Shown piece by piece: positions 2,551 to 31,305 of a DNA stretch of 33,034 nucleotides. The notes beneath the pieces are model-generated. The model saw only the letters and a list, made by a program, of their open reading frames with translations, had not been told where the DNA came from and made no database searches. Source of the stretch: Syntrophobacteraceae bacterium (GTDB taxonomy: Bacteria; Desulfobacterota; Syntrophobacteria; Syntrophobacterales; Syntrophobacteraceae). The translations under genes and the position numbers were made by a program. The stretch is taken from NCBI GenBank assembly GCA_031292215.1, contig JARLHO010000087.1, positions 1 through 33,034 of the forward strand. Reading direction: 5' to 3'. Numbering within the stretch: the first letter of the stretch is position 1; every line of letters starts with the position of its first letter.

Positions 2551-2655
2551 CAACTTACTCACTATTTTGGGTATGACAAACGGAGTGCGAAACAAACCCG
2601 TTTAACGAGCATGGCGCCCGGTGCGGTCGTTCGCCGGAAGAAACGGAGACAGATG

Positions 2656-3912
2656 ATGTCCGATGCAAAGGTTACTGCGGAAAAGGTGCTGGTGTGCGTA
2701 AACGCAAGTCCTGCCGGCGCGGGAGTCATAAGATATGCGGCAAGAAAGGCCGCTGCGGCGGGAGGCAGGCTTTTTGCCGTATATGTGGAAACACCCGGCG
2801 AATTGCTGACCACTAAAGAGGCGCGTGAGCGGGCTAGCGACCATTTGAGACTGGCGGAGGAACTGGGAGCTAAAACGGCGATCCTTACTGGCAAACACAT
2901 TGCCGAAGAGACGATAAAGTTTGCAAGGGATAAGGGCATAACGAAAATTATTGCGGGAAAACCCGGCCGCTCGCGCCTTGCAACCATTTTCTCCGGAAGC
3001 GCCGTAGACCGTCTTGTGCGAATCAGCGACGGAATCGATGTCGAGATCGTTTCGGGGGATTTGGGCGAGGCGGTTCAAAAAACGTATAGGATCGGCTCTG
3101 AGCAAATCTCCTGGTCCGATTACGGAGCAGGCCTTCTTTTTTACGCGTTCGCAACGGGCTTGTGCCTGTTGATGTATCCGCATATCGATTTAAGCAACCT
3201 CATCATGGTCTACTTGCTGGCCGTACTGGTGACGGCGATGGAATCCGGCCGAGGGCCGGCGATAGTCATTTCTCTTTTGAGCGTTTTGACCTTTGATTTC
3301 CTCTTTGTGCCGCCGCGATTTTCCTTCACCGTAGATGATGCCCAATTCATCGTTACTTTCCTGGTCATGTTTGCGGTCGCCCTGGCGATTAGCCACCTTG
3401 CCTCGCTCATGCGCGCCCAGACCCGCACGGCCCGTCTGCACGAAAGACAGGCGGCGGCGATGCACGGTCTTAGCCGCCAGCTCGCCTGCTCCAGGGGCGT
3501 CGAAAATATCGTGAAGATCGCCGTGGAATACATTTCCGAGATTTTTGACTCTCCTCTGATAGTGCTTCTGCCTGACAGCGCGGGCAGGTTGAAGACCTCC
3601 GGGGGCGACCCCTCGCCGGTGCTCCAAAATGACCTGGTAAGGCAGCTCGATCTTGCTCGGAAATCTTTTGAGTCGGGCAAGTCAACCGGTTGGGGAAGCG
3701 AGGTTTGGCCGGAAAACGAAATCCTCTACACCCCCCTTGAGGTGGCGGACTCGAACCTTGGAGTCGTGGCGCTGCGGCCTCGCGATCCCAAACGATTTCT
3801 CATGGCCGATCAGCGTCTCCTTTTGGATTCGCTCGTTAAACAGGTGGCGCTTTCCCTCGATGTGGAATACATGGCGCAAAAGTGCGCGCCCCTACAATCG
3901 TCTGCTTCCTGA
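2656..3912 (+). CDS. KdpD-like sensor without kinase: USP, DUF4118, GAF
   Basis: The 418-aa product matches the middle of KdpD only. In order it has a universal-stress-protein domain (about residues 8-135, with KIIAGKPGRS), four hydrophobic segments of DUF4118 (about 150-245, with the typical FDFLFVPPRFSF), and a GAF-like domain (about 265-400). It ends just where KdpD would continue into the HisKA domain, and it lacks the N-terminal KdpD Walker-A sensor domain. The start at 2656 has GGAG 7 nt upstream; an ATG at 2653 and the longer frame from 2611 are less likely. It converges on the permease gene. In Staphylococcus KdpD the USP domain binds c-di-AMP, so a signal-sensing or scaffold role in potassium or osmotic control is a reasonable inference. 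Confidence 0.85.
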   Translation: MSDAKVTAEKVLVCVNASPAGAGVIRYAARKAAAAGGRLFAVYVETPGELLTTKEARERASDHLRLAEELGAKTAILTGKHIAEETIKFARDKGITKIIAGKPGRSRLATIFSGSAVDRLVRISDGIDVEIVSGDLGEAVQKTYRIGSEQISWSDYGAGLLFYAFATGLCLLMYPHIDLSNLIMVYLLAVLVTAMESGRGPAIVISLLSVLTFDFLFVPPRFSFTVDDAQFIVTFLVMFAVALAISHLASLMRAQTRTARLHERQAAAMHGLSRQLACSRGVENIVKIAVEYISEIFDSPLIVLLPDSAGRLKTSGGDPSPVLQNDLVRQLDLARKSFESGKSTGWGSEVWPENEILYTPLEVADSNLGVVALRPRDPKRFLMADQRLLLDSLVKQVALSLDVEYMAQKCAPLQSSAS

Positions 3913-3932: not shown

Positions 3933-5789
3933 TTATCCGTTCGAAACGGCCCGGCGCCCGAAGTAGTCGATCTGGAAATTAAACTGCGAGAACTTTTTGG
4001 GAAGCTTCATCAGGTTGAATACCATCACCCCGATGGCCAGTCTGTCCATCCAGGAGGACATTGGCCAGCCAAAATGGACGGTGATGGTTTTTTCGGGCAG
4101 TTCGTATTGAAGAAGCTTTAGCAGGAGCAAGATCCTCTGGTAGAGAGAGCCTCTGGAGAGCGGGAAACGATAGTGATTTTTCGCCATCTTGGGCGGGATG
4201 CCCTGGCGGGGGGTAAAAAAGGTTATGTAGGCCTCATTTTCTTTCGGCTCTTCCAGGGCTTCTTCGCGCGGGCGCCGGAAGATTACGTGTATGTCGTCTG
4301 TGGACGATTCCGCAAAGCTAAGCATCATCTCCATCTCGTTATCCGATTGGCCGATCTGGACGATTTCCGGGGCGCGGCGCTTGGCAAGAAACCAGCCGGC
4401 CACAAGTACAAAAGTGGTGACGCTCCCCCAGAGCGCGGTGCCGTGCGGTTTGTCTATCGCCAGGAAAATAAAGCATCCCACCAAAATGATCCACAGGATA
4501 AGAGTCCCCAGGCGACTCGTGTAGTAGGGGACTACCTCCTTTGTTCCGGTAAAATACCGGTAGATCAAAAGCGAGCCGAGGTTTATGCAAAAACTCGCCA
4601 CCAGCCCTATGGCGTACATATCGGCAAGGACTTCCTGGGATCCGCTTGTGATCATGACGATGATGGAGAAAAAGGTCGCATTGAGAATATGGATTCGATA
4701 GAGCGAGTTGCGGCGGTTGGTTGCAATCAGCCAGTGGAACCCGTATCGGTGCGCCACGCGCTCCAGCAGTTCGCTTGAGGCGACAAAGGCGGTGTTTACG
4801 GCCATCATCAAAGTGATGCTGGCAAGGCCTGCCACCATGATGCCGAAAAAAGTCCCGTTTAGGACCGTGGCATAATGGGTGATAAGGTCGCCTTCGTGGG
4901 CGGCAAAATCGAGGGGGGCGCTAAGGGCCAGGGCGGCCACGATGGGCGTCACCAGGCCAACCGTACAGGCCAGGAATAGATATGCCTTGTGTGAGTCGCG
5001 CCAACTGCGCACCAGCCCGGCCGTCTGGATAACCGATTCTATTCCTGAATAGGCCAGGATACAGAAGGCGAGATGGGATATAAAATTTCCGTAATCATGG
5101 AGCAGCGAGCCGGTTTGAAGAGATTTTAGCGAATCTATCCCCGATTGTTTGATGTTTTGGAGGGCCGCGCCGTTTAACTCGACCAGCCCCGAGGCCACAA
5201 GATTTAGGATAACGAAGGCTGCCAGGGCGAAAACCAAAAAGGTGAACCTGGCGTTTTCCTTTATGCCGATAATATTTAGCCCGGCTATCGCCCAGAGTAT
5301 CGCCAGCACCAGGACGATAACAAGCGTGTTGGCCTGGGCGACATGGGGGAAAAACGAGGAGGCGTTTAGAACCGCGCTAACAGCCGATAGACAGGCGGTG
5401 AGGGTGTAGTCGACCATGATCGATGAGACGGCCACAAAAGAGATCATCGGGCCGAGCACCAGGTAGGAAAACGAGTAGACCCCTCCCCCGATGAGTCCGT
5501 TATGCTCCAAAATTTCGGCGATTTCGGTAAATCGCGTGCTCATAAAGCGCATGAGGATACTGGTTAGAGCGATAAATACGATTGCGCTCAACCCGATGAA
5601 CCTGTGCGCCTCCGCAGGTACGTAGAAGATGGACGTAAATTCGTCCATCAGCGTGATGATGCCTACAGCCAGCCAGGTAAGCCACAGCTTTCCGGCCTGG
5701 GAGTAGGAGATGAGGTTGGGTTTGCGCAGGAGAAGGACAAAAGTCCACACAAGCGACAGATTCAGCAGCACGAGAACGATGAGCTTCAT
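3933..5789 (-). CDS. APC-superfamily permease under a c-di-AMP riboswitch, possible K+ importer
   Basis: This is a 618-aa integral membrane protein with about twelve hydrophobic segments in the first 480 residues (for example GGGVYSFSYLVLGP in the early core) and a soluble C-terminal region of about 140 residues. The architecture is that of the amino acid/polyamine/organocation superfamily. B. subtilis YdaO/KimA, a c-di-AMP-regulated potassium importer, has similar length and a similar cytosolic tail, and its mRNA carries the same riboswitch class found here at 5966-6076. Potassium transport is therefore a good hypothesis but not proven; an amino acid permease is the alternative. I chose the ATG at 5789; a GTG at 5810 is in frame but has no ribosome binding site. 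The gene ends 20 bases from the end of the convergent KdpD-like gene. Confidence 0.85.
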   Translation of the reverse strand: MKLIVLVLLNLSLVWTFVLLLRKPNLISYSQAGKLWLTWLAVGIITLMDEFTSIFYVPAEAHRFIGLSAIVFIALTSILMRFMSTRFTEIAEILEHNGLIGGGVYSFSYLVLGPMISFVAVSSIMVDYTLTACLSAVSAVLNASSFFPHVAQANTLVIVLVLAILWAIAGLNIIGIKENARFTFLVFALAAFVILNLVASGLVELNGAALQNIKQSGIDSLKSLQTGSLLHDYGNFISHLAFCILAYSGIESVIQTAGLVRSWRDSHKAYLFLACTVGLVTPIVAALALSAPLDFAAHEGDLITHYATVLNGTFFGIMVAGLASITLMMAVNTAFVASSELLERVAHRYGFHWLIATNRRNSLYRIHILNATFFSIIVMITSGSQEVLADMYAIGLVASFCINLGSLLIYRYFTGTKEVVPYYTSRLGTLILWIILVGCFIFLAIDKPHGTALWGSVTTFVLVAGWFLAKRRAPEIVQIGQSDNEMEMMLSFAESSTDDIHVIFRRPREEALEEPKENEAYITFFTPRQGIPPKMAKNHYRFPLSRGSLYQRILLLLKLLQYELPEKTITVHFGWPMSSWMDRLAIGVMVFNLMKLPKKFSQFNFQIDYFGRRAVSNG

Positions 5790-5965
5790 GTAACTCTTTT
5801 GTGACCTCACGCAATGGAATCTAACTGCAATAGGATCCTAAGCACTGACGGGCCGAGCGTTTATCGCGGAAAGACGAGGAGGGGGTGGCTAAATTCCAAA
5901 GGAAAGACCTGCCTCTTATAAAGACGTGTCAAACCCGAATCGAGTCCGTTACAAATTGCCCTCTT

Positions 5966-6076
5966 GACGCCTGCGAGGTTAGCTGACGGGCTAGGGCTAA
6001 AGAGGTTGCCCCGCGCCTTGTGGCGATACGCCCCGTGTTTATTGGGTCCCCCGCTCCGAATTGCGGATTCGGCGAT
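5966..6076 (-). promoter_or_regulatory. ydaO/yuaA-type c-di-AMP riboswitch
   Basis: On the minus strand the leader of the permease gene shows the conserved blocks of this aptamer in order: ATCGCCGAATCC, CGGAGCGGGGGACCCA, GGGGCGTATC, then GTCAGCTAACCTCG and AGGCGTC. The outer P1 helix forms between CGCC (6075-6072) and GGCG (5971-5968). The internal hairpin CCGAA/TTCGG is also present. A promoter places the transcript start only a few bases upstream. About 175 bases separate the aptamer from the start codon. I saw no obvious intrinsic terminator there, so the expression platform is unresolved. Known members usually turn genes off when c-di-AMP is high. Confidence 0.9.
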
Positions 6077-6089
6077 AACTGCGAAATGC

Positions 6090-6118
6090 ACCTTAATTCG
6101 CGGTAATGACTATGTCAA
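6090..6118 (-). promoter_or_regulatory. Promoter of the riboswitch-permease transcript
   Basis: A perfect TTGACA (-35) at 6118-6113 is followed after 17 bases by TAAGGT (-10, weak, 3 of 6). The predicted start near 6083 falls about 7 bases before the riboswitch P1 helix, which fits well. Confidence 0.55.
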
Positions 6119-8164: not shown

Positions 8165-10459
8165 TTACGGGTCTGCGAATTTTTTCGCCAGATCGTTATC
8201 GATCACATAGAGGCATACCTCCCTTGCGCTATTTTCGGTGTAGCCGTACCTGGAGACGAGGTTGCGAATAAGGATGGCGACATCGTCTTTGATTCGCTTG
8301 TCGTAAGTCTTGAACCCCTCCGTTGCGTAATCTTTGACTCCACTTCGGAAGTTGTCGTTTTTGAGGAAGGGATCCAGCACGTTTTCTTTCAGGTTGTGGA
8401 CGTACCGGTCATGCAAAGATTGGTAGAGATGGGTTTCACACACCGGTTTCTCCTCGATTAGAATCTCCCGGGCAAGGGTTTGGGACGCATATGTGTTCTG
8501 CACCTCCATCCTGAATGCCCTTCGTTTGTCCGCGTCCGAACGATTCCCCAGGATCTTGCGCTCGATGGTTTCGAACAGCTCCTCGGTAATCTTTAGTTCC
8601 TCGTTTGTATAGTGGCATTTCAGGGTCTGTCCGATTTCGAAATTCACTGCGAACAGGTAGTTTTGAATCTGCCGGGAAATGTTATCCTCATTGTAATAGT
8701 AGAGTGATTCCTTTACCTCCTGGAGGACCGTGTAGTCGTAGAGACCGCTAAGGGCCACGGAAAAATCCTCCGAAACGGGTCCGCCCTCGCGGCAATGCTT
8801 CTTGAAGTAAAGGTTCAACATGGCCATCGTGATAGGCTTGCCCTTCTTCATGTAAGCCTGGTAGAATTCGTTGAACATCCTGATCGAATCTCTTCCGGTA
8901 AAGCCTCTGTCTCCTTCCGACTCCGATTCGGCGATGATTTTCCGCCGCCTCTTTGCAGTAAAATTTTTTCGGTCCCCCTCCGAGAGCCAGGGAGGAATGA
9001 TCCCCGCGTATATATCCATTTTGAGCAGCAGAAGATTTCGGTCGCAATAGATGCCGTATTGGCTTGCGTCGGGTATCCACTCGGCTATGGCCGGGGATTT
9101 GGGAATCAGCCTCGAAGAAATGACGATTTTTGCGAAATTTTCAAGGACTCTTGGGAGAAAATATTTTTGGATCTGGTTGCCGAAAATGTTTTCATAGATT
9201 TTAATCTCGGTATTATAATCGAGCACATAGGGTACTTTCACATAAGTGATGCGATCTGCAAACGACTGGGTATCCGCTGTGTTCTCGCGGTCCTCGGGGT
9301 TCATGAGCGCAAAGAAAAGCGAATTGACATTTTCTTCTATGCAATCCACCTTATGCACCCCTTCACTTATAATTCCGTGCAGATTGGCGAACCGCTCCTT
9401 ATTGTGGTCCTTGATGTCCATTAAGGCGTAAATACCATTGTTAGTGTTGGCATACCGCGAATAAAGGTACCTTACTCTATTGCCGTCCATCAATAGAGTA
9501 TTGAGATTGTTTTGGATCTGGTCATCGCTTACGCTGTGCGTCCGCTCTATTTTGTCGCCGGGGTTGAATACACTGATCCCGATTCCGAGCCTTCTATTGA
9601 ACAGGTGCTTTCGCGCATACACCATTGTAAAGACTTTGCACGGCGAGTCCAAAATCTCTAGAAGCGCATGGTATAACGATTGGCAGATAGTGCAGGGGCT
9701 GTCCTTGAAAACCCATTCGTATTGCTTGTGAGAAAAGAGCTTGTGCTTGAAAGCCTCGTCGGAAATGAGTTCGTCGAAGAAGTCCCTGCGGTAGGTTTTG
9801 GGAATAAGAAGCAGGGGGCTGTCATGGCTGGGACATGCTATTTCCAGGTACTCTTTGCCGGGGGCAGGCGACGGGGCCACGGCCTGCCCGCCCCCGGTGG
9901 AGCGCTCCACGATATCTTTTAATTGGTCGACGAGGTATTTTGCCGTGGGGTCCGTTCCGTTTCCAAGCAGTTTCCTGTCCAGGCGCCAAACCGTCTCGAA
10001 GCTCGATCCTTCCTCGGTTGCCGCATATTTTTCGAATTTCATCAGCAAGTTATTTAGAAAAGTGCTCTTGCCGCATCCGTGGGGACCCTCGAAAATGTAG
10101 ATTCTGTTTTGCCTGATGCCGCGCCGGAATGAGGAAATGTGTCCGAGCAGCCTGTTTAGGAAAAGCCGGTCGCCAAAAAACGGCCTGTCGGTCTCCTGTT
10201 CGAACAGGCGGCTCGAGTCGTAGGGGACATAGTTTATCGATTCGGGGTCATCGGGGTATTCATCTGTTCCAACATCCATGTAGCTGTATATCATGTCATG
10301 GAACATCTGGAAGACGTTGCGGAAGATGCGCTCGGGAAACTTGGCTGCAAGGGCGATATATTCCGGATAGCTAAACGGAGTGCGCCGCCCCCGCTCCTCT
10401 ATCCTGACGCAGAGTTCGTTAATCGCGCGTTGGCCATTTGAGAGTTCCGTGTCCATCAT
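8165..10459 (-). CDS. Second PrkA-like AAA+ protein (divergent paralogue)
   Basis: This 764-aa protein is last in the prkA-yhbH-spoVR operon. It has a Walker A motif GPHGCGKST at residues 125-133. A possible metal site follows, with C209-x2-H212 (CPSHDSPLLLIP) and C256-x2-C259 (CTIC). PrkA-type proteins have a comparable CP..PL.LIP segment, which supports a PrkA relationship, but overall it differs greatly from the first PrkA in the operon. The counterpart of the Walker B/sensor region (around DIKDHNKERFANL) is not canonical, so kinase activity cannot be assumed. The ATG overlaps the spoVR stop as ATGA, with GAGG 8 nt upstream, which implies translational coupling. The C-terminal third is mainly charged and helical. 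Confidence 0.8.
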   Translation of the reverse strand: MMDTELSNGQRAINELCVRIEERGRRTPFSYPEYIALAAKFPERIFRNVFQMFHDMIYSYMDVGTDEYPDDPESINYVPYDSSRLFEQETDRPFFGDRLFLNRLLGHISSFRRGIRQNRIYIFEGPHGCGKSTFLNNLLMKFEKYAATEEGSSFETVWRLDRKLLGNGTDPTAKYLVDQLKDIVERSTGGGQAVAPSPAPGKEYLEIACPSHDSPLLLIPKTYRRDFFDELISDEAFKHKLFSHKQYEWVFKDSPCTICQSLYHALLEILDSPCKVFTMVYARKHLFNRRLGIGISVFNPGDKIERTHSVSDDQIQNNLNTLLMDGNRVRYLYSRYANTNNGIYALMDIKDHNKERFANLHGIISEGVHKVDCIEENVNSLFFALMNPEDRENTADTQSFADRITYVKVPYVLDYNTEIKIYENIFGNQIQKYFLPRVLENFAKIVISSRLIPKSPAIAEWIPDASQYGIYCDRNLLLLKMDIYAGIIPPWLSEGDRKNFTAKRRRKIIAESESEGDRGFTGRDSIRMFNEFYQAYMKKGKPITMAMLNLYFKKHCREGGPVSEDFSVALSGLYDYTVLQEVKESLYYYNEDNISRQIQNYLFAVNFEIGQTLKCHYTNEELKITEELFETIERKILGNRSDADKRRAFRMEVQNTYASQTLAREILIEEKPVCETHLYQSLHDRYVHNLKENVLDPFLKNDNFRSGVKDYATEGFKTYDKRIKDDVAILIRNLVSRYGYTENSAREVCLYVIDNDLAKKFADP

Positions 10460-12084
10460 AACAGTGTCCTCGATAGCTGCCTGTCTTTCATGGTATAGAG
10501 CACCCTTCGGTGAGAGGGTTCCCTGTCGGCGGGGGGAGGCGACTCCCCGGGATAAGATTCGCGCGCCTTTTTAATCGGCTCCGAAGTTTCGAGCTTCACC
10601 GGCCCGCCCCAGAGGTATTCGATCCCGATCATAGTGTTCGAAATGAATTCCTTTACGAGCGGTTTGCCCTCGAAGTGGTGGTTGAGGCACAGGCAGTTGT
10701 CCTCGGTATTCGATTTTTCGATTTCTATAAACGGCGGATGATAGAGCTGGTCCAGGACCATTTGCCTGTACTGCCCCGCGTCCCTGCTTCGTACGTAGTA
10801 CTCCCTGGTCCCCTTGTCGGGGTTTAGTCTTGCGCCTGTTACGAAAAGTTTGTGCCTGTCCACGAATTCCTGGTCCACGAAGCTGTTTATGAACGTAAAG
10901 TCGTTGAAATCTTCCCTGACCCTGAAGATATGGTCCAGTCCGGAACCGGTGGCTTTATCGTAGTCGCGCCGCCGCCCGGCGTTTTGGAGCCTTTGAAAAT
11001 CGTAGCTCATCTTGCCTTTGTCAGCCATCTCTTCGATGTGGCTAAAGAGCCGCATCCCGAGGGCATAGGGATTTAGGCCGATTCTGGGCAGGGAAGTGAC
11101 CAAGGCGTTAACTCTGGCAAACCCCACTTCATTTCCCCTGATCCGGTCGTCTTTGAGGAAGAGTTTCTCGTGCCAGTAGCTGGCCCAGCCTTCGTTTAGG
11201 ATTTTAGTGCGGATCTGGGGCTGGAAATAGAGCGAGGTCTTGCGCACTATTTCGATCACCGACTGCATCCACCGGTTTTCTTCCTTTTGCAAAAAGGCGG
11301 AATTGAGCAGCAGGAAATCGAGCAGGTCTCGCGCTTGCCGCCGCCCTTGTTTCTTGTGGCGGTCGAAAAGAGCGTCGAATTCCGGATAAGACCTTGTAAC
11401 CTGAGAGAAAAAAAGGGTTTCGGACATTTCGCCGAATTGGCGCGCCGCTTCGTTATAGCGGTCGATCTCCTTTAGATAATCGATGAGGTTTACTTTACGG
11501 ATGGTCTGAAGAAATATATCGAAGTAGAAGTCGAGCTTTGCGGAGGTCTTGATTTCCCCGGGCTGGTTTAGTTCGGAGAGCTCGGAGTGGAACCCCACCA
11601 GGTTGTCTATGCTGCGGCTGAATTCGATCACGTAATCGACCCATCGCCCCTTCTCGGATCGAAGCATGGCGATCGACCTCTTGTCGGAGAGCGCCCGTCC
11701 GGCGAAATCTTCATCCCAGGTGTGCTTAAAGAACGTATTGTTTTGAAAAAAATCGATATGGGCCAGCACGTGGTAGAAGATCATGACATTTAACCAGTCG
11801 GGATTGTTGTCGTTATAGAACGAAATCGCCGGACGCGTATTGATCACCGTTTCGTAGGGATTGTTGGGGTAGAGTTCGTACCTTCCTTTCTCCTTTAGAA
11901 CTTCGACGTCGTTTACCCAGTAATCGTAGAGGGTGGGGATCATGTGTTTGGAGGAAAGTTCGATCAGATCTGTATTGGTCACGATGTATTCGAGCGTTTC
12001 GTCCCCGAAGCGCAACCCCGACTTTCGGGCCCTTTCCTTGCACCCTTCCATTATTTTTTTGGTGTGCTGATTGATAAGCTCCAT
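10456..12084 (-). CDS. spoVR: SpoVR family protein
   Basis: The 542-aa product is a SpoVR/YcgB family member of near-normal length (YcgB is about 510). Typical conserved segments are HVLAHIDFFQNN near residue 105 and LNEGWASYWHEK near residue 304. It is predicted to be soluble. The biochemical role is unknown. The family is linked to spore cortex formation in Bacillus and is co-inherited with PrkA and YhbH/YeaH in many non-sporulating bacteria, where stress or starvation is the usual context. The start has GGAG 8 nt upstream and follows the yhbH stop by 15 bases. The C-terminus runs about 30 residues beyond the usual end as a Pro/Ser/Arg-rich tail overlapping the next gene. Confidence 0.93.
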   Translation of the reverse strand: MELINQHTKKIMEGCKERARKSGLRFGDETLEYIVTNTDLIELSSKHMIPTLYDYWVNDVEVLKEKGRYELYPNNPYETVINTRPAISFYNDNNPDWLNVMIFYHVLAHIDFFQNNTFFKHTWDEDFAGRALSDKRSIAMLRSEKGRWVDYVIEFSRSIDNLVGFHSELSELNQPGEIKTSAKLDFYFDIFLQTIRKVNLIDYLKEIDRYNEAARQFGEMSETLFFSQVTRSYPEFDALFDRHKKQGRRQARDLLDFLLLNSAFLQKEENRWMQSVIEIVRKTSLYFQPQIRTKILNEGWASYWHEKLFLKDDRIRGNEVGFARVNALVTSLPRIGLNPYALGMRLFSHIEEMADKGKMSYDFQRLQNAGRRRDYDKATGSGLDHIFRVREDFNDFTFINSFVDQEFVDRHKLFVTGARLNPDKGTREYYVRSRDAGQYRQMVLDQLYHPPFIEIEKSNTEDNCLCLNHHFEGKPLVKEFISNTMIGIEYLWGGPVKLETSEPIKKARESYPGESPPPADREPSHRRVLYTMKDRQLSRTLL

Positions 12085-12099
12085 CTTTATGGCTCCATG

Positions 12100-13428
12100 T
12101 CAGGAGAGCAGTCTCTTTATTCCCTCTATGAGCTGAACCTCGGTTGCGTTTTCGCCTACCTTATCTATGCGAAGCGCCTGCGCAAATTCTTCGAGAAGCC
12201 CGGAGTTCGCTATATACTTCTCCACAGTGGTCGAGCCGCCGGGGCTCGAACCCGCAATAGTCACCCCGACCCTGCTCGCAAATCCGAGGGTTTTCCTGAT
12301 CTCGGCGACCGTGTCGTGTCCCTGCGAATCCCAGTCGTCTCCGTCTGTGCCGTGGAAAACGTAGATATTGTAGTCGCGGGCCAGATTTCCCGCCTCAACG
12401 ATCTCGTTTACCAGCCGGTAGGCCGATTCGACCCGGGTCCCGCCCGCCACCGAAGAGTTGTAGTAGGTGTAGAAGTCGGTGACCTCCCTGGCCGTTGTGT
12501 CATGCAAAATGAACTTCGTTTCCACCTGTCTTTCGTACTGATAAAGAATCCAGCTGTAGATCAGCACGTGCTGGGTAACGACCGCGTCTGTGGGCGGGCC
12601 GGCCATCGAACCCGAGTAGTCCCTTAGAAAGAAGATCATGGCCTGCGATTCGTAGTCTTTTTCCTTCGACAGGATCCGGTAGACTTGGTCCTGCGGGGAA
12701 ACCAGAAACCGCGCGAGGTCGATTTCCCCGCTGTCCGTGATGTTGCCGAGGTTGATATTGGTCTGGACGACTTTTTTTAGTGTCGCCTTCTTGTCGAGCA
12801 ACTGCCCGTTTCTTGCGTGCCTGTCGGTAAGATCGTAGGTGAAACGGGTTAGCGAACGCTTTGTCCCCTTGTTTTTAAGATTTGGCAATTCGAACTTCTC
12901 GCCCAGGACCTTCCCGAGATCGTAGGCGCTCGATTCTATTTCATGAGCGGCCTCTTCCCCGCCGCCCGGCCCCGCACCCTGGCCGCCTTCCCCCGGAGTC
13001 CCGTCGGCCGGCTCCTCTCCAATCACTTCCCCTTCTTTGCCTTCACCCGTTCCTCCCGATGTGCTTTCTTCCTCCGTCTCCTCGCTCCTGGCGTCATGGA
13101 TGAATTTTTCCTCAACCGTTGTGGGCACCAGGATGATTTTGTCCTTGCCCCCGCGACCGGGCTTTACCAGCCGTCCAACCCGGATCTTGCGCGGGAAACC
13201 ATCCGTTTCCCGCTGCTTGTCGCGTTCGAGAAGCTCGTCTATGGCGCTTAGACTCTGGACCTGAGAGGCGATGGAAGGCGATGAGTCTTGAATAAAAACC
13301 ATGTCGCCGCCCCAGCAGGCCTTATCCGGCCCATGCGTACCAAGGAGCGGAGGCGCGCTGTCTTGCGCTTCGCCCCGCAAGGCCTCTTCGCGTTTGCTCT
13401 CGGGGGAGTCTGAAACCCTATGTCCCAT
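12100..13428 (-). CDS. yhbH: YhbH/YeaH (DUF444) protein with vWA-like domain
   Basis: The 442-aa protein has the DUF444 layout. A basic N-terminal part is followed by a low-complexity Gly/Glu-rich linker (about 115-160), the family block LGKVLGEKFELPNLKNKG, and a C-terminal von Willebrand A-like domain with a MIDAS motif D270-x-S272-x-S274 (RDYSGSM) and a GGT loop. Members always travel with prkA and spoVR. Binding of a PrkA partner through the metal site is plausible but unproven. GAGG lies 5 nt before the ATG at 13428; an ATG at 13302 (MVFIQD) is a less likely alternative. About 40 N-terminal residues have no counterpart in the family. The gap to prkA is 21 bases. Confidence 0.92.
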   Translation of the reverse strand: MGHRVSDSPESKREEALRGEAQDSAPPLLGTHGPDKACWGGDMVFIQDSSPSIASQVQSLSAIDELLERDKQRETDGFPRKIRVGRLVKPGRGGKDKIILVPTTVEEKFIHDARSEETEEESTSGGTGEGKEGEVIGEEPADGTPGEGGQGAGPGGGEEAAHEIESSAYDLGKVLGEKFELPNLKNKGTKRSLTRFTYDLTDRHARNGQLLDKKATLKKVVQTNINLGNITDSGEIDLARFLVSPQDQVYRILSKEKDYESQAMIFFLRDYSGSMAGPPTDAVVTQHVLIYSWILYQYERQVETKFILHDTTAREVTDFYTYYNSSVAGGTRVESAYRLVNEIVEAGNLARDYNIYVFHGTDGDDWDSQGHDTVAEIRKTLGFASRVGVTIAGSSPGGSTTVEKYIANSGLLEEFAQALRIDKVGENATEVQLIEGIKRLLS

Positions 13429-13449
13429 GGGGCCCTCGTTTACCTTTTT

Positions 13450-15516
13450 TTAGTTCTCGTCGATTTTGGTGCAAAAGTACTCCACGGTCTTCTGGGCACA
13501 GGTCCGGCAGTATCCCAGTTTGTCGAGCATGGCGATTATGATCCGGTCGTAGAGCTTCTGGTTTTCCTCGTTGGTGCGGTTGGCCAAGGCGCCGATAAGG
13601 CTCCCCGCCCCGGCGATGTCGGATTTTAGCCGTACCTCGGTTACCGCCTTGACCAGTTCGAGATTGTCCATGAAGTCATAATCGCGGTCCGTGGACAGCT
13701 TCTGGCCGTAAATCTTTCGAATTGAAGTCCTGAAGGATTCCCTTTGCTCCCGGGTCTTTAGCCCCAGCCTGTCTTCGACGGATTGAATGTAGCGCTCGTC
13801 GATCTTTAAAGCCTTCAACTCTCCGGTCTGCGGATTTTTGTATTTCCACATCCTCTCAGGGCCCAGTTCTTCGGCGTCCATCCCGATGATCATGTTCACG
13901 TAGTTCATCACGTCCTTGCGAATGGCATGGGGTTCATCCATATAGGCATTGAACATCTCGGTCATTATCCGTTCACGGTATAGTCCTCTGGCGATTTTTA
14001 GATCGTCGAGGTACTTTGCGCGCTCGTTTGCCTCCGAAACATAATCGAGCACCACCCGTTCGATGCACTTGAAGATGTCGTAGGAGAACATGCATTGACC
14101 TTCATTGGTCTCCGAGGTCTCCATGAGCAGTTGGACGGCCCGGCCAAGATTGCGCTGGCCCAGTCCCTTCTGGCCGAACCTCTTGGTGATGTCCGGTTCG
14201 TGATTGAGGGCGTCGATGACCTCGCTTAGCGTCTTTATGCTCTTCTCGCCTGCTACTTCGCCTGCGGCCAGCTTCATCGTTTCGATCGGGGTGAGTTTTT
14301 CGGATCTGGGCAGCCGGCTAAGCACCACCGCAGCCGATACGGCGCTGTTGAGATTGGGATCCTGGTGAAGCTTTTCCTTTGTCAGGGTCGTTTTGGCCTC
14401 GCTGCCTATGGCGTAGGAGGTCAACTGCTCCTGGAGCCGGTAGTCGGTGTTGTGGGCCACGTAGCAAATCCTGCATCGGTCCACTATCGGCGCCTCCTCC
14501 TTTTCAGCAAGGAACCTGTTGAACTCGGAGTTGTTGCTGGTGGCGATGATCAGGGTGTCGATGGGCCAACGGAACCCGTCGATTTCTATGTTCCGGTTCT
14601 GGATCACCCCCAGGTAGACCTGCACGAGGTCCTTTTTGTTCTTGAAGATTTCATCGCTGAAATGGATTCCTCCGCCCGCCACCCGAGCCAGGGCGCCCCG
14701 TCTCAAGTCGAACCGGTAGGGGTTGTTCAGGTCCGTTATGTGGAGCAGCCGCTGGATCGATTCTTCCCCCAGCAGATCGACGGCCGATGAGGTTATCTTG
14801 TCCTTTGCCGAGTATTTGCCGGTCATCGACCCCATGCTCTCGCTAAGCGGGACCGGGACGACTTCGAAAAAGCCAAGGAGCTTTTCGAGATCTCCTTTCG
14901 AGTATTCCCTTATCTCGTTTAGCATGTAGTCGCTGCACGCCCCGAGAGGCCTGAAATTGAGATAGAGTCTTTCGATCTGCTCGTCGGAAAAACCGGCCGC
15001 TTCGGAAAGAAACCGCCTGTTCTTGTCCGGGGATTCATAGAGATTCAACGCCAGGATCATCGGGTCTTCGAAGGTTTGAGACTGTATCGTCTTTATCTTG
15101 CCGTAGTTTCCGAACGCCTCCAGGTTCTTGATATTGAAGGTATATCTTCGGTTTTCCTCCCGGGCGATAAAACTGCGGTACAGACTGCACAGATAGTCGA
15201 CAAGGAATGTTTTCCCGTTGCCCGGTTCCCCGACGAGAACGAAAGCCATCTCCCGCGAGGAACCCCCTTCGGCGGCATCCTTTACAAACGAGACGAAACT
15301 GTTGATCTCGTCGTACATGCCGATGACGTGCTTCGAGAAGGCCCGAAAGATCTTGAAATCATAGGTGCTCTTGCCGTTTACCAGCACTTTCTCTATCCCC
15401 GACGGCTCGTCGAGGATCATTCTGGCCACGGCTTGGTAGGCGTTTTCAAAATGCCTCTTTCCCTCCCTGACCAGTTGAATATGGTATTGAAGGCTCTTAG
15501 CGTTATTTGCTTCCAT
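13450..15516 (-). CDS. prkA: PrkA serine protein kinase / AAA+ ATPase
   Basis: The 688-aa protein has the PrkA arrangement: an N-terminal AAA+ core with Walker A GEPGNGKT (residues 96-103), a Walker B-like segment GGIHFSDE (about 282-289) and a sensor-1 segment IIATSNNSEF, then the PrkA C-terminal domain. It contains a Cys pair in DRCRICY. PrkA/YeaG is reported as a Ser/Thr kinase in several bacteria, and protease-like activity has been proposed for B. subtilis PrkA, so the activity is best left open. The ATG at 15516 has GGAG 6 nt upstream; the frame extends to a TTG at 15528 that overlaps this site. It is the first gene of the four-gene operon. Confidence 0.93.
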   Translation of the reverse strand: MEANNAKSLQYHIQLVREGKRHFENAYQAVARMILDEPSGIEKVLVNGKSTYDFKIFRAFSKHVIGMYDEINSFVSFVKDAAEGGSSREMAFVLVGEPGNGKTFLVDYLCSLYRSFIAREENRRYTFNIKNLEAFGNYGKIKTIQSQTFEDPMILALNLYESPDKNRRFLSEAAGFSDEQIERLYLNFRPLGACSDYMLNEIREYSKGDLEKLLGFFEVVPVPLSESMGSMTGKYSAKDKITSSAVDLLGEESIQRLLHITDLNNPYRFDLRRGALARVAGGGIHFSDEIFKNKKDLVQVYLGVIQNRNIEIDGFRWPIDTLIIATSNNSEFNRFLAEKEEAPIVDRCRICYVAHNTDYRLQEQLTSYAIGSEAKTTLTKEKLHQDPNLNSAVSAAVVLSRLPRSEKLTPIETMKLAAGEVAGEKSIKTLSEVIDALNHEPDITKRFGQKGLGQRNLGRAVQLLMETSETNEGQCMFSYDIFKCIERVVLDYVSEANERAKYLDDLKIARGLYRERIMTEMFNAYMDEPHAIRKDVMNYVNMIIGMDAEELGPERMWKYKNPQTGELKALKIDERYIQSVEDRLGLKTREQRESFRTSIRKIYGQKLSTDRDYDFMDNLELVKAVTEVRLKSDIAGAGSLIGALANRTNEENQKLYDRIIIAMLDKLGYCRTCAQKTVEYFCTKIDEN

Positions 15517-15581
15517 CTTCTGCTCCAAGCTGAAGAGTTAGGGTGGCTTTTAGAAGACTCTCCTGGATGTCCTACGCTAAT

Positions 15582-23277: not shown

Positions 23278-26200
23278 TTAGTGACCTGCCAACAAGGCGT
23301 GTATGCTCGCAAGGATCTGGTTGTGCTCATAGTGGCTAAGCTCAATGGCTTTGGCCGGGCACTCCGACACGCAGGTCCCGCAACCCTGGCAAAGAGCTTC
23401 GTTTATTTCCGAGACCTGCTCTTCATTGATTTTAGGGATATTGTACGGGCAGCTCCTTACGCACACGAGGCAGGCCGCGCACCTTTGGCCGTCCACATGG
23501 GCCACCGCCCCTCCAACACTAAGCGTTTTACCGGCGAGAAAAGAGCCTGCCCTGGAGGCGGCGGCGAGGGCCTGAGTGACGCTCTCGCCTATGAGCTTGG
23601 GGGAATGGGCAGTGCCGCAAAGAAAAATGCCCTCCGAGGCAAAGTCCACCGGGCGGAGCTTGGCGTGGGCTTCGATGAAGAACCCGTTGGCATTTCTGGG
23701 GACTTTTAGCTGCGAGGCGATCGCGTCCGTGTCGTTTGCGCGGGTTGCGGCGCTGAGCACGACCGCATCCGCTGCGATTTTCACCCAACGCTGCAAAACG
23801 TGGTCGCTAAATACCACCGCAAGACCCGTCCCGTTGGTCCTCACCTCAGGTTCTTTATCCGTGTCGAAGCGGGCGAACACGATGCCGTTTCGCCTGGCTT
23901 CCATGTAGTAATCCTCCAGCATGCCGTACATTCTCATGTCCCGGTAAAGGATGTAAATCTCCATTTCGGGATTGGTTTCCTTGAGCTGCAGAGCGTGCTT
24001 CACCGCGCTCTGGCAGCAGATGCGGCTGCAGTCCGGATTTTGCTTGTTGCGCGAGCCGACGCACTGGATCATGACCACCCGCTTCCACTTCCCAGGGTCT
24101 TTTTCTGCCGGAGGATGCTCGATCATTTCGTCGAGCTCGAGTTGCGTCATTATGCGTTCGTTTGTGCCGTAACCGTATTCGACGGGCTTGTGCTCATGGG
24201 CCCCCGTGGCAAGGATCGCCACCCCATGCTCGATGGTGTGCTCGGCCTTATCCGGCCCCGCTTCCACCGTGGAGGTGAAGTTTCCCTTGTAGCCCTTAAA
24301 GGAGGTGAGCGAGGCTTGCGTCAAGACCTCGATGCTCCCGTTGGTACGGACCTGCTCGACGAGGCCGTCGATGTAAGGCTTAACGTTCGTCCCCTCTATG
24401 GTGCGGGAGATCTTTTCGGCCAGGCCGCCAAGTCTTGTTTCCTTTTCAACGAGAAAGGCTTTAAATCCCTGTCCGGCGAGGTTTAACGCCGCGTTGAGCC
24501 CGGCGACTCCTCCGCCCACTACGAGCGCCGACTGGGTAATTCCGACTTTCCTGTCTTCAAGTTGCTTTAGCATCGCCGCTCGAGCCACAGACATCCTCAC
24601 GAGAACCTTTGCCTTTTCGGTTGCCTTTGCCCGCTCGTGCATATGCACCCAGGAATCCTGGTTGCGGATGTTGGCCATGTCGAAGAGGTACTTGTTTAGC
24701 CCCGCCTCCAGCAGAGTTTCGCGAAACAGCGGTTCATGCGTCAAAGGCGTACACGCGGCGACCACCATTCGGTTGATGCCCTTTTGCCTGATCACTTCCG
24801 CCATCCTCACCTGCGTGTCCTGGGAACAGGTAAAGAGGTTATCCTCGACATGGATCACGTTGGGAAGAGTCCTCGCATATTCCCGCACGGCCGCAACATC
24901 GACTATGCCCCCGATATTGATGCCGCAATTGCAGACGAAAACGCCGATCTTCGCAGGCTCCGAACTCACGTCTCTTTTAGGCGGGTATTCTCTTGTCCGG
25001 GTCTGGGTCCACCGGGACTCGGCAAGAAGCGCGCCGCCTGCCGCCGCAGCTCCTGAGGCCTCCATTACCGACTGCGGGATGTCCTTTGGGCCTTGAAGCG
25101 TTCCGCAGACATAAACCCCCGGGCGGCTGGTGGAAACAGGCATGAAGACATCGGTTGCCGCGTAATTGTGTTTGTTGAGGTCGATTCCGAGACGATCGGC
25201 CAGGGCGACGGTCTCGAGCCCGACTTCGAAACCCGTCGACAATACCGCCATGTCGAAGACGTCTTCCCGCAGTTCGCCGTCTTCGGCTGTGTACCGGATC
25301 TTTAGGTCGGCTTCGCCCTCCGCCTCTATGGTGTGAACCCTTGACCGGATGAACTTTACGCCCAGTTCTTTTGCGCGGTTGTAATATTGCTCGAATTCCT
25401 TGCCATAGGTGCGCATGTCCATGAAAAAAATGGAGCAATCGAGGTCATGGTGGGCATGCTCCTTGGCGATGACCGCCTCTTTTATGGCGTATATGCAGCA
25501 AACGGCCGAACAATAGGAGTTGGCGCAACCGTTGGTGCTGCGGGACCCGACGCACTGTATCCAGGCGATCTTTTCGGGTTCCTGCCGGTCGTAGGGACGC
25601 ATGAGGCTGCCGCGGTATGGGCCGGAGGCGCTCAGTATGCGCTCGAACTCGATGCTGGTCACAACGTTTGGGAATTTCGCATAATTTAGGGTATCCAATC
25701 CGGAAGGATCGAACACCTCGTTTCCGGGCGCCAGTATGACCGCGCCGACTTCGATCTCCGTCATGCGGGGCTGGTCGTCGTAGTGGACGGCGCCGGCAAG
25801 GCAGACCTTTTCACACATCCCGCAGCCTATGCAGATGCCTCGGTCGATGGCGAACCCCCCGGGGATGGCCTGAGGATAGCGCATGTAAGCCGCTTCCCTC
25901 AGATCGAGTTTCTGGTTGAATTCGTTTACGGCCGTCACCGGGCACACCGAACGGCACTGACCGCACGCGGTGCACGACGCAAGGTCGATGTAGCGGGGGT
26001 GAGTCTTTAAGGTCGCCGTGAAGTTCCCGGCTTCTCCTTCCAGCGACTGGACTTCGGAGTTGCATAGGATATTGATATTGAGATGGCGGCCTACCTCGAC
26101 CAGTTTGGGCGAGATGATGCACATGGCGCAGTCGTTGGTTGGAAACGTCTTGTCGAGCTGGGCCATTATGCCGCCGATGGTCGGGGACTTATCCGCCAGG

Positions 26201-26310
26201 TGCACGTAATAGCCGGAATTGGCGAGATCGAGCGACGCCTGCATTCCCGCAACGCCCGCCCCGACAACCAGTACAGAGCCTTTGCTGCTACCAGCCTTCG
26301 AGTTCGACAT
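23278..26310 (-). CDS. hdrA: HdrA-like double-module FAD/iron-sulfur protein (copy 2)
   Basis: The 1010-aa protein joins two HdrA-like modules. The first has an FAD motif (VVGAGVAGMQAS, residue 14 on), the Cys cluster TNDCAMCIISPK, two ferredoxin motifs (CTACGQCRSVCP and CIGCGMCEKVC) and CSAVCC. From about residue 455 a complete HdrA follows: VFVCNCG, AACTPLTHEP, a second FAD motif (VVGGGVAGLNAA), SRICCQSAVKHAL, then two C-terminal ferredoxin motifs, CAACLVCVRSCP and CQGCGTCVSECP, both with all Cys. HdrA is the bifurcating flavin subunit of heterodisulfide reductase-type complexes. GGAGG lies 7 nt before the ATG. Its physiological partners are unknown because HdrB and HdrC genes are absent. 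Confidence 0.93.
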   Translation of the reverse strand: MSNSKAGSSKGSVLVVGAGVAGMQASLDLANSGYYVHLADKSPTIGGIMAQLDKTFPTNDCAMCIISPKLVEVGRHLNINILCNSEVQSLEGEAGNFTATLKTHPRYIDLASCTACGQCRSVCPVTAVNEFNQKLDLREAAYMRYPQAIPGGFAIDRGICIGCGMCEKVCLAGAVHYDDQPRMTEIEVGAVILAPGNEVFDPSGLDTLNYAKFPNVVTSIEFERILSASGPYRGSLMRPYDRQEPEKIAWIQCVGSRSTNGCANSYCSAVCCIYAIKEAVIAKEHAHHDLDCSIFFMDMRTYGKEFEQYYNRAKELGVKFIRSRVHTIEAEGEADLKIRYTAEDGELREDVFDMAVLSTGFEVGLETVALADRLGIDLNKHNYAATDVFMPVSTSRPGVYVCGTLQGPKDIPQSVMEASGAAAAGGALLAESRWTQTRTREYPPKRDVSSEPAKIGVFVCNCGINIGGIVDVAAVREYARTLPNVIHVEDNLFTCSQDTQVRMAEVIRQKGINRMVVAACTPLTHEPLFRETLLEAGLNKYLFDMANIRNQDSWVHMHERAKATEKAKVLVRMSVARAAMLKQLEDRKVGITQSALVVGGGVAGLNAALNLAGQGFKAFLVEKETRLGGLAEKISRTIEGTNVKPYIDGLVEQVRTNGSIEVLTQASLTSFKGYKGNFTSTVEAGPDKAEHTIEHGVAILATGAHEHKPVEYGYGTNERIMTQLELDEMIEHPPAEKDPGKWKRVVMIQCVGSRNKQNPDCSRICCQSAVKHALQLKETNPEMEIYILYRDMRMYGMLEDYYMEARRNGIVFARFDTDKEPEVRTNGTGLAVVFSDHVLQRWVKIAADAVVLSAATRANDTDAIASQLKVPRNANGFFIEAHAKLRPVDFASEGIFLCGTAHSPKLIGESVTQALAAASRAGSFLAGKTLSVGGAVAHVDGQRCAACLVCVRSCPYNIPKINEEQVSEINEALCQGCGTCVSECPAKAIELSHYEHNQILASIHALLAGH

Positions 26311-26399
26311 AACCGTTCCTCCCGGATCGAAAAGCGCAGTGTGCGGCCGGTTCCATGCAACGTCCGGCCCTGCACACGGTTGGCATAACTAAAAACCTG

Positions 26400-27185
26400 T
26401 CAGGCTGCGATAAAACACTTTAGACCCGTATCGTACCTGACCAAGCCCTGCTTCGATGAAATGTTGAGCTGTCTTGAAACTTCGGACGGGCTAAGGCCCA
26501 GGGTCGAAGATATTTCCCCCGTCGAAAGAGGGCCCTCCCGCAAAAGCGAGGTGATCTGGCTAATCACCAGTTTGCTTACGATAATATCGTCGAACAACTT
26601 GTTTATCTCTTCGCTGTTGAAAAATTTATCGTATTCTTCCTCGGGTTCCGAAGAACTTCTCAGCTTAAGGGGCGCTCTCAGTCTTTGCCTTTCGACCAGC
26701 TTGATGTAGGGGATGAGCCTTGCGGTCGCTTCGAGTTTAAACCGCAGCGTCTTTTCGTCTAAGCCTTCGCTCGATCCGAGCGGCCCCAGCTTCTGAATCG
26801 CTGGGGCAAAGTCGTTCATAATGTTTGCGAAACGGATTCCTTCGCCGGCCGACACCCATTCGTGCCTCAGCCGCGCGGGATTTATCCCTATGCACTCCAG
26901 CAGCTTCTTGCATATTTTCACCATGCCCAACGCATTGTAATTTCCGTTCGTAATGTAGTGGCAGTCGTTTAGATGACATCCCCCGACGAACACTGCGTCC
27001 AGGCCGTTCGAAAAAGCGCGGAATATATGCGCCAGGTCGACCCTGGCCGAACACATGACCCTTATGAGCCGTATGTGAGGGGGGTATTGAAGGCGGGAAA
27101 CCCCGCAAAGGTCGGCCCCTCCGTAGCAGCACCAGTTGCATATGATACCGAGAAGTTTCGGATTGAATTCACCACCCGTACCCAT
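26400..27185 (-). CDS. MvhD-like subunit fused to a C-terminal helix-turn-helix (copy 2)
   Basis: The 261-aa protein has an N-terminal MvhD domain with C16-x2-C19 (CNWCC), C45 and C70-x4-C75 (GGCHLNDCHY), ending near residue 140. It then continues for about 120 residues: a charged helical linker and, at about 205-250, a winged-helix-like segment (ITSLLREGPLSTGEISSTLG followed by SPSEVSRQLNISSKQGLV) of ArsR/MarR appearance. Ordinary MvhD proteins are about 140-150 aa. The start has AGGTG 8 nt upstream. The fusion suggests an electron-transfer subunit that could also sense redox state and bind DNA, or that uses the fold for protein contacts; neither is shown. Confidence 0.88.
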   Translation of the reverse strand: MGTGGEFNPKLLGIICNWCCYGGADLCGVSRLQYPPHIRLIRVMCSARVDLAHIFRAFSNGLDAVFVGGCHLNDCHYITNGNYNALGMVKICKKLLECIGINPARLRHEWVSAGEGIRFANIMNDFAPAIQKLGPLGSSEGLDEKTLRFKLEATARLIPYIKLVERQRLRAPLKLRSSSEPEEEYDKFFNSEEINKLFDDIIVSKLVISQITSLLREGPLSTGEISSTLGLSPSEVSRQLNISSKQGLVRYDTGLKCFIAA

Positions 27186-27213
27186 ATCTTTTCACCTCTC
27201 CTCGATTTGTGCG

Positions 27214-30200
27214 TTAGTGCGCGTGCGCATGTCTTGGGGGAACAACAGCGTCGATCTGGCTGAAAATCTCTTCATCCGTGTAGTGTTTTAGCGATATGGC
27301 CGATGTCGGGCAGACCGTGTTGCAAAGACCGTCTCCTTTGCAAAGAACCGCATTCACCGCAGCCTTCCTGCCCTTGGGCGTCTGCGCAAAATCTATCGCG
27401 CCGTAGCTGCACACCGTGATACAGGCCCCGCAGGCTACACACCTGTTCTCGTCTACGTCGCAGACCGAACCCGATGCTACGACCGTTTCGTGCGAAAGAA
27501 GGGTGAGCGCGCGGCCCGCTGCTCCGTAAGCCTGGCTTACCGCCTCCGATATATGTTTGGGATAGTGAGCGGTCCCGCACAGGTAAACCCCTTCGGCGCC
27601 AAAGTCCACGGGCTTTAGCTTTGCATGGGCCTCCTGGAAAAATCCGTCCGGCCCCGGGGCGGTTTTGAACAACCCGGCGATTTTCTTTATCCCTTCGGAA
27701 GGAACGACCGCTGCGGACAAAATGAGGTGGTCGGCGTCCAAAAGAAGCCTTTGGCCCAGGACGGGATCGAGCGTGGTTATCCTAATGACCGGTCTTCCTT
27801 CCGCCACGACCGCCTCCACCAAGGGACGATCTTCCGGCTCGAACCGGACGAACTTCACGTCTTTGTCCGCTGCCTCCCGGTAATAATCCTCCCTCAGTCC
27901 GTACATTCTCATGTCCCGAAAAAGAATCGTGATATCGATCTGCGGGTTTATACCCTTTAGTTTCAACGCGTTTTTGACGGCGTGGCTGCAGCATATCCTC
28001 GCGCAGTAGTTCCTGTACTCCTGCCTGCAGCCCACGCACTGGATCATGACCATGCCGCGGGAACCCGCGATGCTTTTATCCCGCTTGGCGATCTTTTCCT
28101 CCAGTTCGAGCTGGGTCATTACTTTTTCATCTTGCCCGTAGAGGTATTCGGAGGGCTTGTATTCCTCGGCCCCCGTGGCGAGGACCGCCGCGCCATGTTT
28201 TATCTCGGAAAACCCCCTGTCGGATTTTAGCCTGGTCGTGAAGTTTCCGACAAAACCCGCGACTTCCACTATGCTCGCCTCCGTGTAGACGCGGATTCCG
28301 GGATGCTGGTAAACCCTGCGTATGCGATCTTCCAGGTAGGCCTGGACATCCAGCCCTTCCAGGGTATAGTGAATCCTTCTGGCCATTCCCCCCAGCTCTT
28401 TTTCTTTTTCCACCAGGTGAACCGGGTGTCCCTGTTTGGCTATGGACAGGGCGCAAGTCATTCCGGCCACACCCCCACCGACCACCAGCGCCGCCTTGTC
28501 CACCGGAAGGTCGTATTCCAGGAGGGGCTCGAGGCGGCAGGCCCTTGCAACCGACATGCGGATTATGTCCTTGGCCTTTTCGGTCGCCTTCTCCTGCTCT
28601 TTGGAATGCACCCAGGAACAATGTTCCCGGATGTTGGCCATGTCGTAGAAGTATTGATTGATTCCCGCCTCCCGCAGAGTGTCCCGGAAAAGAGGCTCAT
28701 GCGTTCTGGGGGTGCAGGCCGCAACCACCACGCGGTTCAGCCCCTTTTCCCGGATCGATTTCGAAAGCTTCTGGGCGGCTTCGGTCGAACATATAAAAAG
28801 GCTTTCTTCGGCATGCGCTACATTCGGCAGGCTCAAGGCGTATTCGACAGTCGAGGGCACATCGACTATCCTTCCGATATTGGCCCCGCAGTGGCATACA
28901 TAGACCCCCACCCTGGGCTCCTCATTGGAAACGTCCCGTTCCTCCGGATATATCCTTTCCCTGGACAATTTGCCGCGCCGGTAGGACAGGAGTTCGCCGC
29001 ACTGGGAACTCGCCCCGCTGGCCGTCGCCACCGACTCGGGGATGTCCACCGGGCCCTGGAAAGCGCCGCTTATGAAAACTCCCCGCCGCGTGGTCTCCAT
29101 GGGGTTTGCCGGGTTGGTTTTACAGAACCCGTGGGAATTGAGCTCGATTCCGAATCTGGCCGCGATGTCGTTACGATCGGCCGGAGGGGTGAGCCCCACG
29201 GAGAGCACCACCATCTCGAATTCTTCTTCCTTGACCCCGCCCTCGGCGGCGTAACGGATGGTGATGTTTTTACTCTCCGCAATTTCTTTTCCAAGCGACG
29301 CGTAGCTCCGTATGAACCGGACCCCGGGAATATTGGCCGTTCTTTGGTAGAACCGCTCGAAGTCTTTTCCGTAGGAACGGATGTCGTTGTGGAATATGGT
29401 GCACTCGGCATCGGCGTCATGGTCTTTTGTGAGGATAACCTGCTTTTGCGTATAGGTGCAGCAGACCGCCGAACAGTAGCTGTTTGCGCCCGGAAGGATC
29501 TGCCTCGAACCGATGCACTGTATCCAGGCTATTCTGTGGGGGTGTTCTCTGTCCGAAGCGCGCCTTATCTCTCCTTCATACGGGCCGGTGGCGCACAGGA
29601 GCCGTTCGTAGTCGAGGCTGGTGACCACGTTTTCCAGCCTGCCGTAGCCGAATTCGTCCCTTAGCCTTGCGTCGAAAGGCTTAAATCCCGGGGAAAGGAT
29701 TATCGCTCCCACTTTCACGTCGATTTTTTGCGCCTTCTGATTGAAATCTATGGCCCCGGTCTTACAGACCGCCGAACAGATGCGGCATTTTTTCTCTTTG
29801 AGGTAGAGGCAGCTCTCGTCTATGTAAGTCACAAGAGGCGTGGCCTGCGCGAAGAATATGTGGACCGCCTTGTTTTTTGAAATTTCCTGGTTGAACCGGT
29901 CGGGGTAGGTGACGGGGCAGTATTCCACGCACGTGGTGCAGCCCGTGCACTTGTCCTCTATAATGTACCGCGGCTTTTTGACAAGCGTTACGGTGAAGTT
30001 TCCCGCTTCCCCTTGCACGCCGTCGACTTCCGTATAGGTAAGGAGCTCTATATTGGGATGCCGGGCGCATTCGTTGAACTTGGGGGATTCGATGCACATG
30101 GAGCAGTCGTTGGTTGGAAAAGTCTTGTCGAGTTGCGCCATGTGGCCGCCGATGGTCGGCGATTTTTCGACCAAAAAAACCTTAAAGCCTGCCGTGCCAA

Positions 30201-30324: not shown

Positions 30325-30374
30325 CACCTCGTAAAATCACTTCGGTCCATAGGTTCACCGGCCAACCCGGCGGC

Positions 30375-31121: not shown

Positions 31122-31305
31122 TTCTGTCTCCTCTTCTCCCTGCGCATGTGCGAGCTTAAAAAAAATGACGTCCGCCGATAAAAGGCCTGTCTCGGGTTGG
31201 ACGCTGCCTGACACTCGTGCGGAAAAGAGCGCTGATGATCTCGCCTTAGCGATCCGGTAATGACGCCGGGACCGCCGGTAAGATTATGGGCAAATCTGGT
31301 TATGG

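Follow-up and report, generated by a model that had tools for sequence, protein, structure and literature searches.

A c-di-AMP riboswitch upstream of a KimA-like permease, a probable potassium importer, in a Syntrophobacteraceae bacterium

The closest described counterparts of the locus analyzed here are the c-di-AMP riboswitches of the ydaO/yuaA class (RF00379) and the K+ importers KimA and Kup. In Bacillus thuringiensis, c-di-AMP acting on this class of aptamer promotes termination and lowers expression of the kdp K+ importer, and the kdpFABC riboswitch of that species has a proven intrinsic terminator downstream of its aptamer (PMC6488665). On the protein side, KimA of B. subtilis is a K+:H+ symporter of solved structure (PDB 6s3k, 8b70, 8b71), whose K+/H+ residues are D36, Y43, D117, T121, S125, T230, E233, and Y377 (PMC6994465). 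A KimA molecule carrying the T230A replacement still supported growth (PMC6994465).

We studied a stretch of 33,034 nucleotides from a Syntrophobacteraceae bacterium (hereafter the window), in which a first-pass annotation had placed a c-di-AMP (ydaO) riboswitch and its promoter at positions 5966-6118. The features of the locus, in the direction of transcription of the permease gene, are as follows:

6090..6118, minus strand: promoter, with -35 TTGACA (6118-6113), a 17-nt spacer, and -10 TAAGGT (6095-6090); single match in the window, kept in relatives
5954..6084, minus strand: c-di-AMP (ydaO/yuaA, RF00379) riboswitch aptamer, defined by covariance-model match and covariation
6000..6005, minus strand: 5' strand of the pseudoknot (CCTCTT), in the loop of the last aptamer hairpin, paired with 5965-5960
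5960..5965, minus strand: 3' strand of the pseudoknot (AAGAGG), in the 3' tail of the aptamer, paired with 6005-6000
5790..5953, minus strand: leader and candidate expression platform, 164-165 nt, with a weak hairpin (5936-5900) and a conserved GYGAGG element (5810-5804)
3933..5789, minus strand: KimA-like permease of the APC superfamily, 618 aa, ATG at 5789; probable K+:H+ symporter with a C-terminal cytosolic domain
2611..3912, plus strand: KdpD-like sensor of 433 aa with Usp-DUF4118-GAF domains and no kinase, its gene tail to tail with that of the permease

We consider it very probable that this locus is a c-di-AMP OFF switch acting on a KimA-like K+ importer. A sigma-70 promoter (6118-6090) would drive a transcript carrying the aptamer at its 5' end. 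When K+ is plentiful, diadenylate cyclases would raise c-di-AMP, the aptamer would fold round it, and the gene downstream would be expressed less; when K+ is scarce, c-di-AMP would drop and the permease gene, encoding a putative APC-fold K+:H+ symporter of a clade separate from but next to KimA and Kup, would be made. Ligand binding and K+ transport are proposed here from work on other species, and the OFF direction is transferred from Bacillus thuringiensis (PMC6488665), whose kdpFABC riboswitch has the same aptamer class and likewise lies upstream of a K+ importer.

The aptamer, its promoter and the supply of c-di-AMP

A search of RF00379 with Infernal returned a full-length match (model positions 1-134 of 134) on the minus strand at 5954-6084, scoring 92.5 bits (E 9.7e-21) against a curated gathering threshold of 38 bits. 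The riboswitch recognized in the first-pass annotation is consequently real, although its span was slightly displaced: the aptamer occupies 6084-5954, and position 6118 belongs to the promoter, as the 5'-most base of the -35 box. The conserved blocks that had been read on the minus strand are all intact, as is the pseudoknot. No other Rfam family reached its threshold within the window, and the 4.9-Mb genome assembly contained no second RF00379 match.

Covariation across 37 aptamers of the phylum supported the helices of the molecule, including the pseudoknot. In this set 91.9% of cells were paired, 20 of the 32 aptamer pairs showed a two-sided change in at least one sequence, and none of 500 shuffles reached the observed values. 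Pairing was poorest in the pseudoknot (74% of cells), three of whose six pairs showed two-sided change. The aptamer has the same helices and pseudoknot as the ydaO/yuaA riboswitch (RF00379) and the same place upstream of a gene of K+-importer type, and in itself presents no difference from that class. The RNA of the window is therefore a genuine and ordinary c-di-AMP riboswitch, one more instance of a well-known class.

The TTGACA promoter said to start the transcript just upstream was recovered at 6118-6090. Its -10 element is weak, agreeing at three of six positions, and a generic promoter scan does not report the TTGACA-17-TAAGGT pair. Five same-genus relatives keep the TTGAC(A/G) box at the same position and with the same spacing, and most relatives of the genus have a TANNNT-like -10 element. 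Transcription is expected to start near 6083, a few bases from the first modelled position of the aptamer.

The first-pass annotation had made its reading depend on a diadenylate cyclase being present in the genome. Three DAC-domain proteins scored over the cut-off:

DAC protein 1: DAC-YbbR architecture, CdaA type
DAC protein 2: 198 aa
DAC protein 3: L003, 1357-2892, minus strand, DACND-DACNH-DAC architecture

The DACND and DACNH sensor domains of the third protein suggest a separately sensed c-di-AMP input. The PgpH-type membrane domain (7TM-HD) had two matches in the genome, one of them strong.

The leader and its candidate expression platform

The leader that separates the aptamer from the start codon is long when compared to those of the RF00379 switches found before most Kup genes of relatives (165 nt versus 60 nt or less), and it lacks an obvious terminator. 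Neither a terminator scan nor hairpin and U-tract scoring revealed a convincing intrinsic terminator in the window leader, where only a weak hairpin is seen, whereas in each of two relatives (L105 and L108) a terminator-like hairpin precedes a run of U. Hairpin and U-tract scoring, which covered even lengths only, passed 2 of 16 leaders when 1.2 were expected, so the set is not clearly enriched; the L108 hairpin was missed because of this restriction to even lengths. The pyrimidine bias of the leader is slight (C/G 1.11), so we make no claim of Rho-dependent termination. In a thermodynamic model that left out the pseudoknot, the hairpin had a probability of 0.84 in the free RNA and 0.91 with the aptamer fixed, and no switching was visible. 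General complementarity between aptamer and leader did not exceed that of shuffles. In one relative, a reading frame in the leader overlapping the start was seen by eye; this frame is interrupted in the window.

One variant of the OFF-switch mechanism invokes a long-range anti-aptamer helix that would form, when c-di-AMP is absent, between the 3' strand of helix P3 and a GYGAGGT element. The P3 3' strand (ACCTCGC, 5979-5973) is indeed complementary to the conserved GYGAGGT (5810-5804), which lies about 20 nt before the start, and five of six same-genus leaders share the helix in an identical register, their individual z values being -1.1 to -3.3. However, p is 0.12 in the window leader itself, the five leaders are related rather than independent, the helix is absent from other genera, and a helix test of the first 110 leader bases found nothing above chance. 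The start-proximal GYGAGG complement is suggestive only, and we regard this variant as unlikely.

The properties of the leader also bear on whether the switch still functions. If the aptamer were a decaying or orphan copy, kept through recent ancestry after its regulation was lost, one could explain why neither a convincing terminator nor a masked start site is visible, why the start codon lies 165 nt downstream of the aptamer, and why the folding model of the leader is unchanged when the aptamer is constrained. Such a copy would not be expected to retain every aptamer block and the pseudoknot at 92.5 bits. Furthermore, among same-genus relatives the leader has strongly diverged but the aptamer and promoter have not, a pattern that indicates selection. 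We consequently find an orphan copy highly improbable and retain the reading of an active c-di-AMP OFF switch.

The permease and its probable substrate

The permease gene starts at an ATG (5789) that is kept in relatives. The only Pfam model matched by its product is AA_permease_2 (PF13520; 88.8 versus 27 bits), with which all 68 members of the permease family also score; since this is a superfamily-level model, the match does not fix the substrate. The protein has no match to Pfam PF02705 (K_trans) or to any NCBIfam model. When its single sequence was compared with solved structures it matched KimA (E 3e-5), and a family profile searched against the PDB again placed KimA on top (E 3.3e-15), followed by a cationic amino acid transporter (0.0043). 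A model predicted from the 68-row alignment (pLDDT 82, against 44 for the single-sequence prediction) had KimA as its top Foldseek match. Structure alignment (VIA-align) likewise ranked KimA first, with Z 40.9, 518 aligned residues that take in the cytosolic domain, and an rmsd of 17.7, a value that presumably results from a different placement of domains in the model. Other APC folds followed closely (Z 38, membrane part), and because many APC transporters with other substrates rank so near, the fold alone was not used to assign substrate.

In a quick tree, the members of the permease family grouped together in one clade (support 99), next to those of KimA (99) and Kup (100) and to a fourth one (100); we claim no order of clades, since the tree is a quick one and long branches join them. 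The controlled gene had been described as encoding an APC-superfamily permease like KimA, and our analysis refines this description: KimA is the nearest solved relative and shares the predicted fold over 518 residues, but the window permease lies outside the KimA clade, at about 16% identity. It resembles Kup in having equivalent K+-site residues, and Kup is also under RF00379 in relatives; it differs in lacking a PF02705 match and in its helix-1 motif (MDEFTSIFY versus GDIGTSPLY in Kup).

The taxonomic distribution of the switch revealed a recurring linkage with such genes. RF00379 was present in 33 of 147 genomes (the window genome and relatives), and the genes behind it in relatives encoded 9 permeases of the window type (besides that of the window), 18 Kup proteins, one of them the product of the second gene after a switch, 8 KimA proteins, and 1 KdpA; the names Kup, KimA, and KdpA reflect a by-eye judgment of sequence resemblance, to which an alignment was added in the case of KimA and Kup. 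Across 80 named loci of the permease family, a switch lay directly upstream in at least 14 of the 31 from Desulfobacterota (assigned by record title), a lower bound because some contigs end close to the gene. The other 49 loci, which come mostly from Ignavibacteria/Bacteroidota, had no switch in this place. Among named relatives, the closest are Syntrophobacteraceae and deltaproteobacterial metagenome-assembled genomes, which agrees with the earlier proposal of a likely Desulfobacterota member. Two Desulfobacterota loci (L108 and L125) present a tandem of riboswitch, permease, riboswitch, and Kup, each K+ importer with its own RF00379-type copy.

The K+/H+ residues of KimA have equivalents in the window permease at D49, Y56, D127, T131, S135, S248, E251, and Y392, in the order given above. 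D36, Y43, D117, T121, S125, E233, and Y377 of KimA are thus kept, while T230 is replaced by S and N237 by Q. These K+/H+ positions were invariant in 17 sampled family members except for that of D117 (13 of 17), which is replaced in some distant members; the T230 position was always S. The residues of the KimA K+ site are common to the window clade, KimA, Kup, and the fourth clade. The set was absent from 15 ordinary AA_permease_2 proteins of the same and related genomes, a comparison that rests on the other seven positions because the D36 column was gap-shifted for the KimA rows of the control alignment. The conserved residues constitute the main evidence pointing to K+ and, together with the predicted shape, suggest that the permease is more probably a K+ importer than an amino acid permease.

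The riboswitch could be as described here and yet control osmolyte uptake, with the permease importing an amino acid or other osmolyte. The Pfam name AA_permease_2, under which all 68 family members score, agrees with this explanation, and c-di-AMP acts on osmolyte transporters in other bacteria (PMC10284832). Against it stand the retention of the KimA K+-site set and its absence from the 15 ordinary AA_permease_2 proteins, a helix 1 without the GSG/GAG motif, and the observation that the other RF00379-linked genes assignable in relatives all encode K+ importers. We judge osmolyte import quite improbable. Of the potassium or osmolyte uptake originally suggested, site residues and linked genes favor the first and not the second, and we retain K+ import as the probable function.

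The cytosolic domain carries a further signature, GWPxSSW (permease residues 572-580), that is nearly invariant across the 68 members. By eye, it takes the place of an HN-type stretch seen in the phylum's KimA proteins (the c-di-AMP pocket H579/N580/Q581 of KimA), and being located at about this pocket it may bind something else. Several copies of the C-terminal cytosolic domain alone occur on contigs of G095 and G130, two of them in tandem (G130:C36) and some with stops.

Genomic surroundings and significance

The neighbors of the permease all point to potassium. KdpD-like sensor genes lie beside it in two phyla, a KdpD-like kinase-less protein adjoins it in two same-genus relatives as well as in the window, and Kup or a fourth-clade permease is found beside it in some loci. 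The KdpD-like sensor is tied to the switch by neighborhood only.

Other observations concern the rest of the genome and window. The only Kup-type match of the genome is a 3' half that follows reading frames of an NhaD-like antiporter (G000:C168 near 1258, L194). This half gene reflects either misassembly or deletion, and a second switch could have been lost in the same way. On the minus strand of the window, a run of four genes at 8165-15528 codes for a pair of distinct PrkA-type kinases (764 and 692 aa) together with a SpoVR protein and a DUF444/YhbH-like protein; it seems unusual for a single cluster to hold both PrkA paralogues. At 23278-31214, also on the minus strand, the genes for two HdrA-like FAD/Fe-S proteins (1010 and 1037 aa) are interleaved with those for two FlpD/MvhD proteins, both of which have a C-terminal ArsR-type helix-turn-helix domain.

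The novelty of the locus is modest and resides in the transporter clade only, the riboswitch itself being ordinary. We give roughly even chances to a broader proposal, namely that the family, whose members are annotated as amino acid permeases, is an uncharacterized clade of K+:H+ symporters found in Desulfobacterota, Ignavibacteria/Bacteroidota, and others, that it is controlled by RF00379 only in Desulfobacterota, and that its expression platform may use a long-range anti-aptamer helix and not a terminator. Short full-text literature searches found no description of such a re-assignment, which is weak evidence of absence. Overall, the combination of RNA control, active-site residues, and neighboring genes makes it probable that these widespread 'amino acid permeases' should be re-assigned as proteins of potassium uptake; the prediction can be tested for uncultured relatives of sulfate reducers and for Ignavibacteria.
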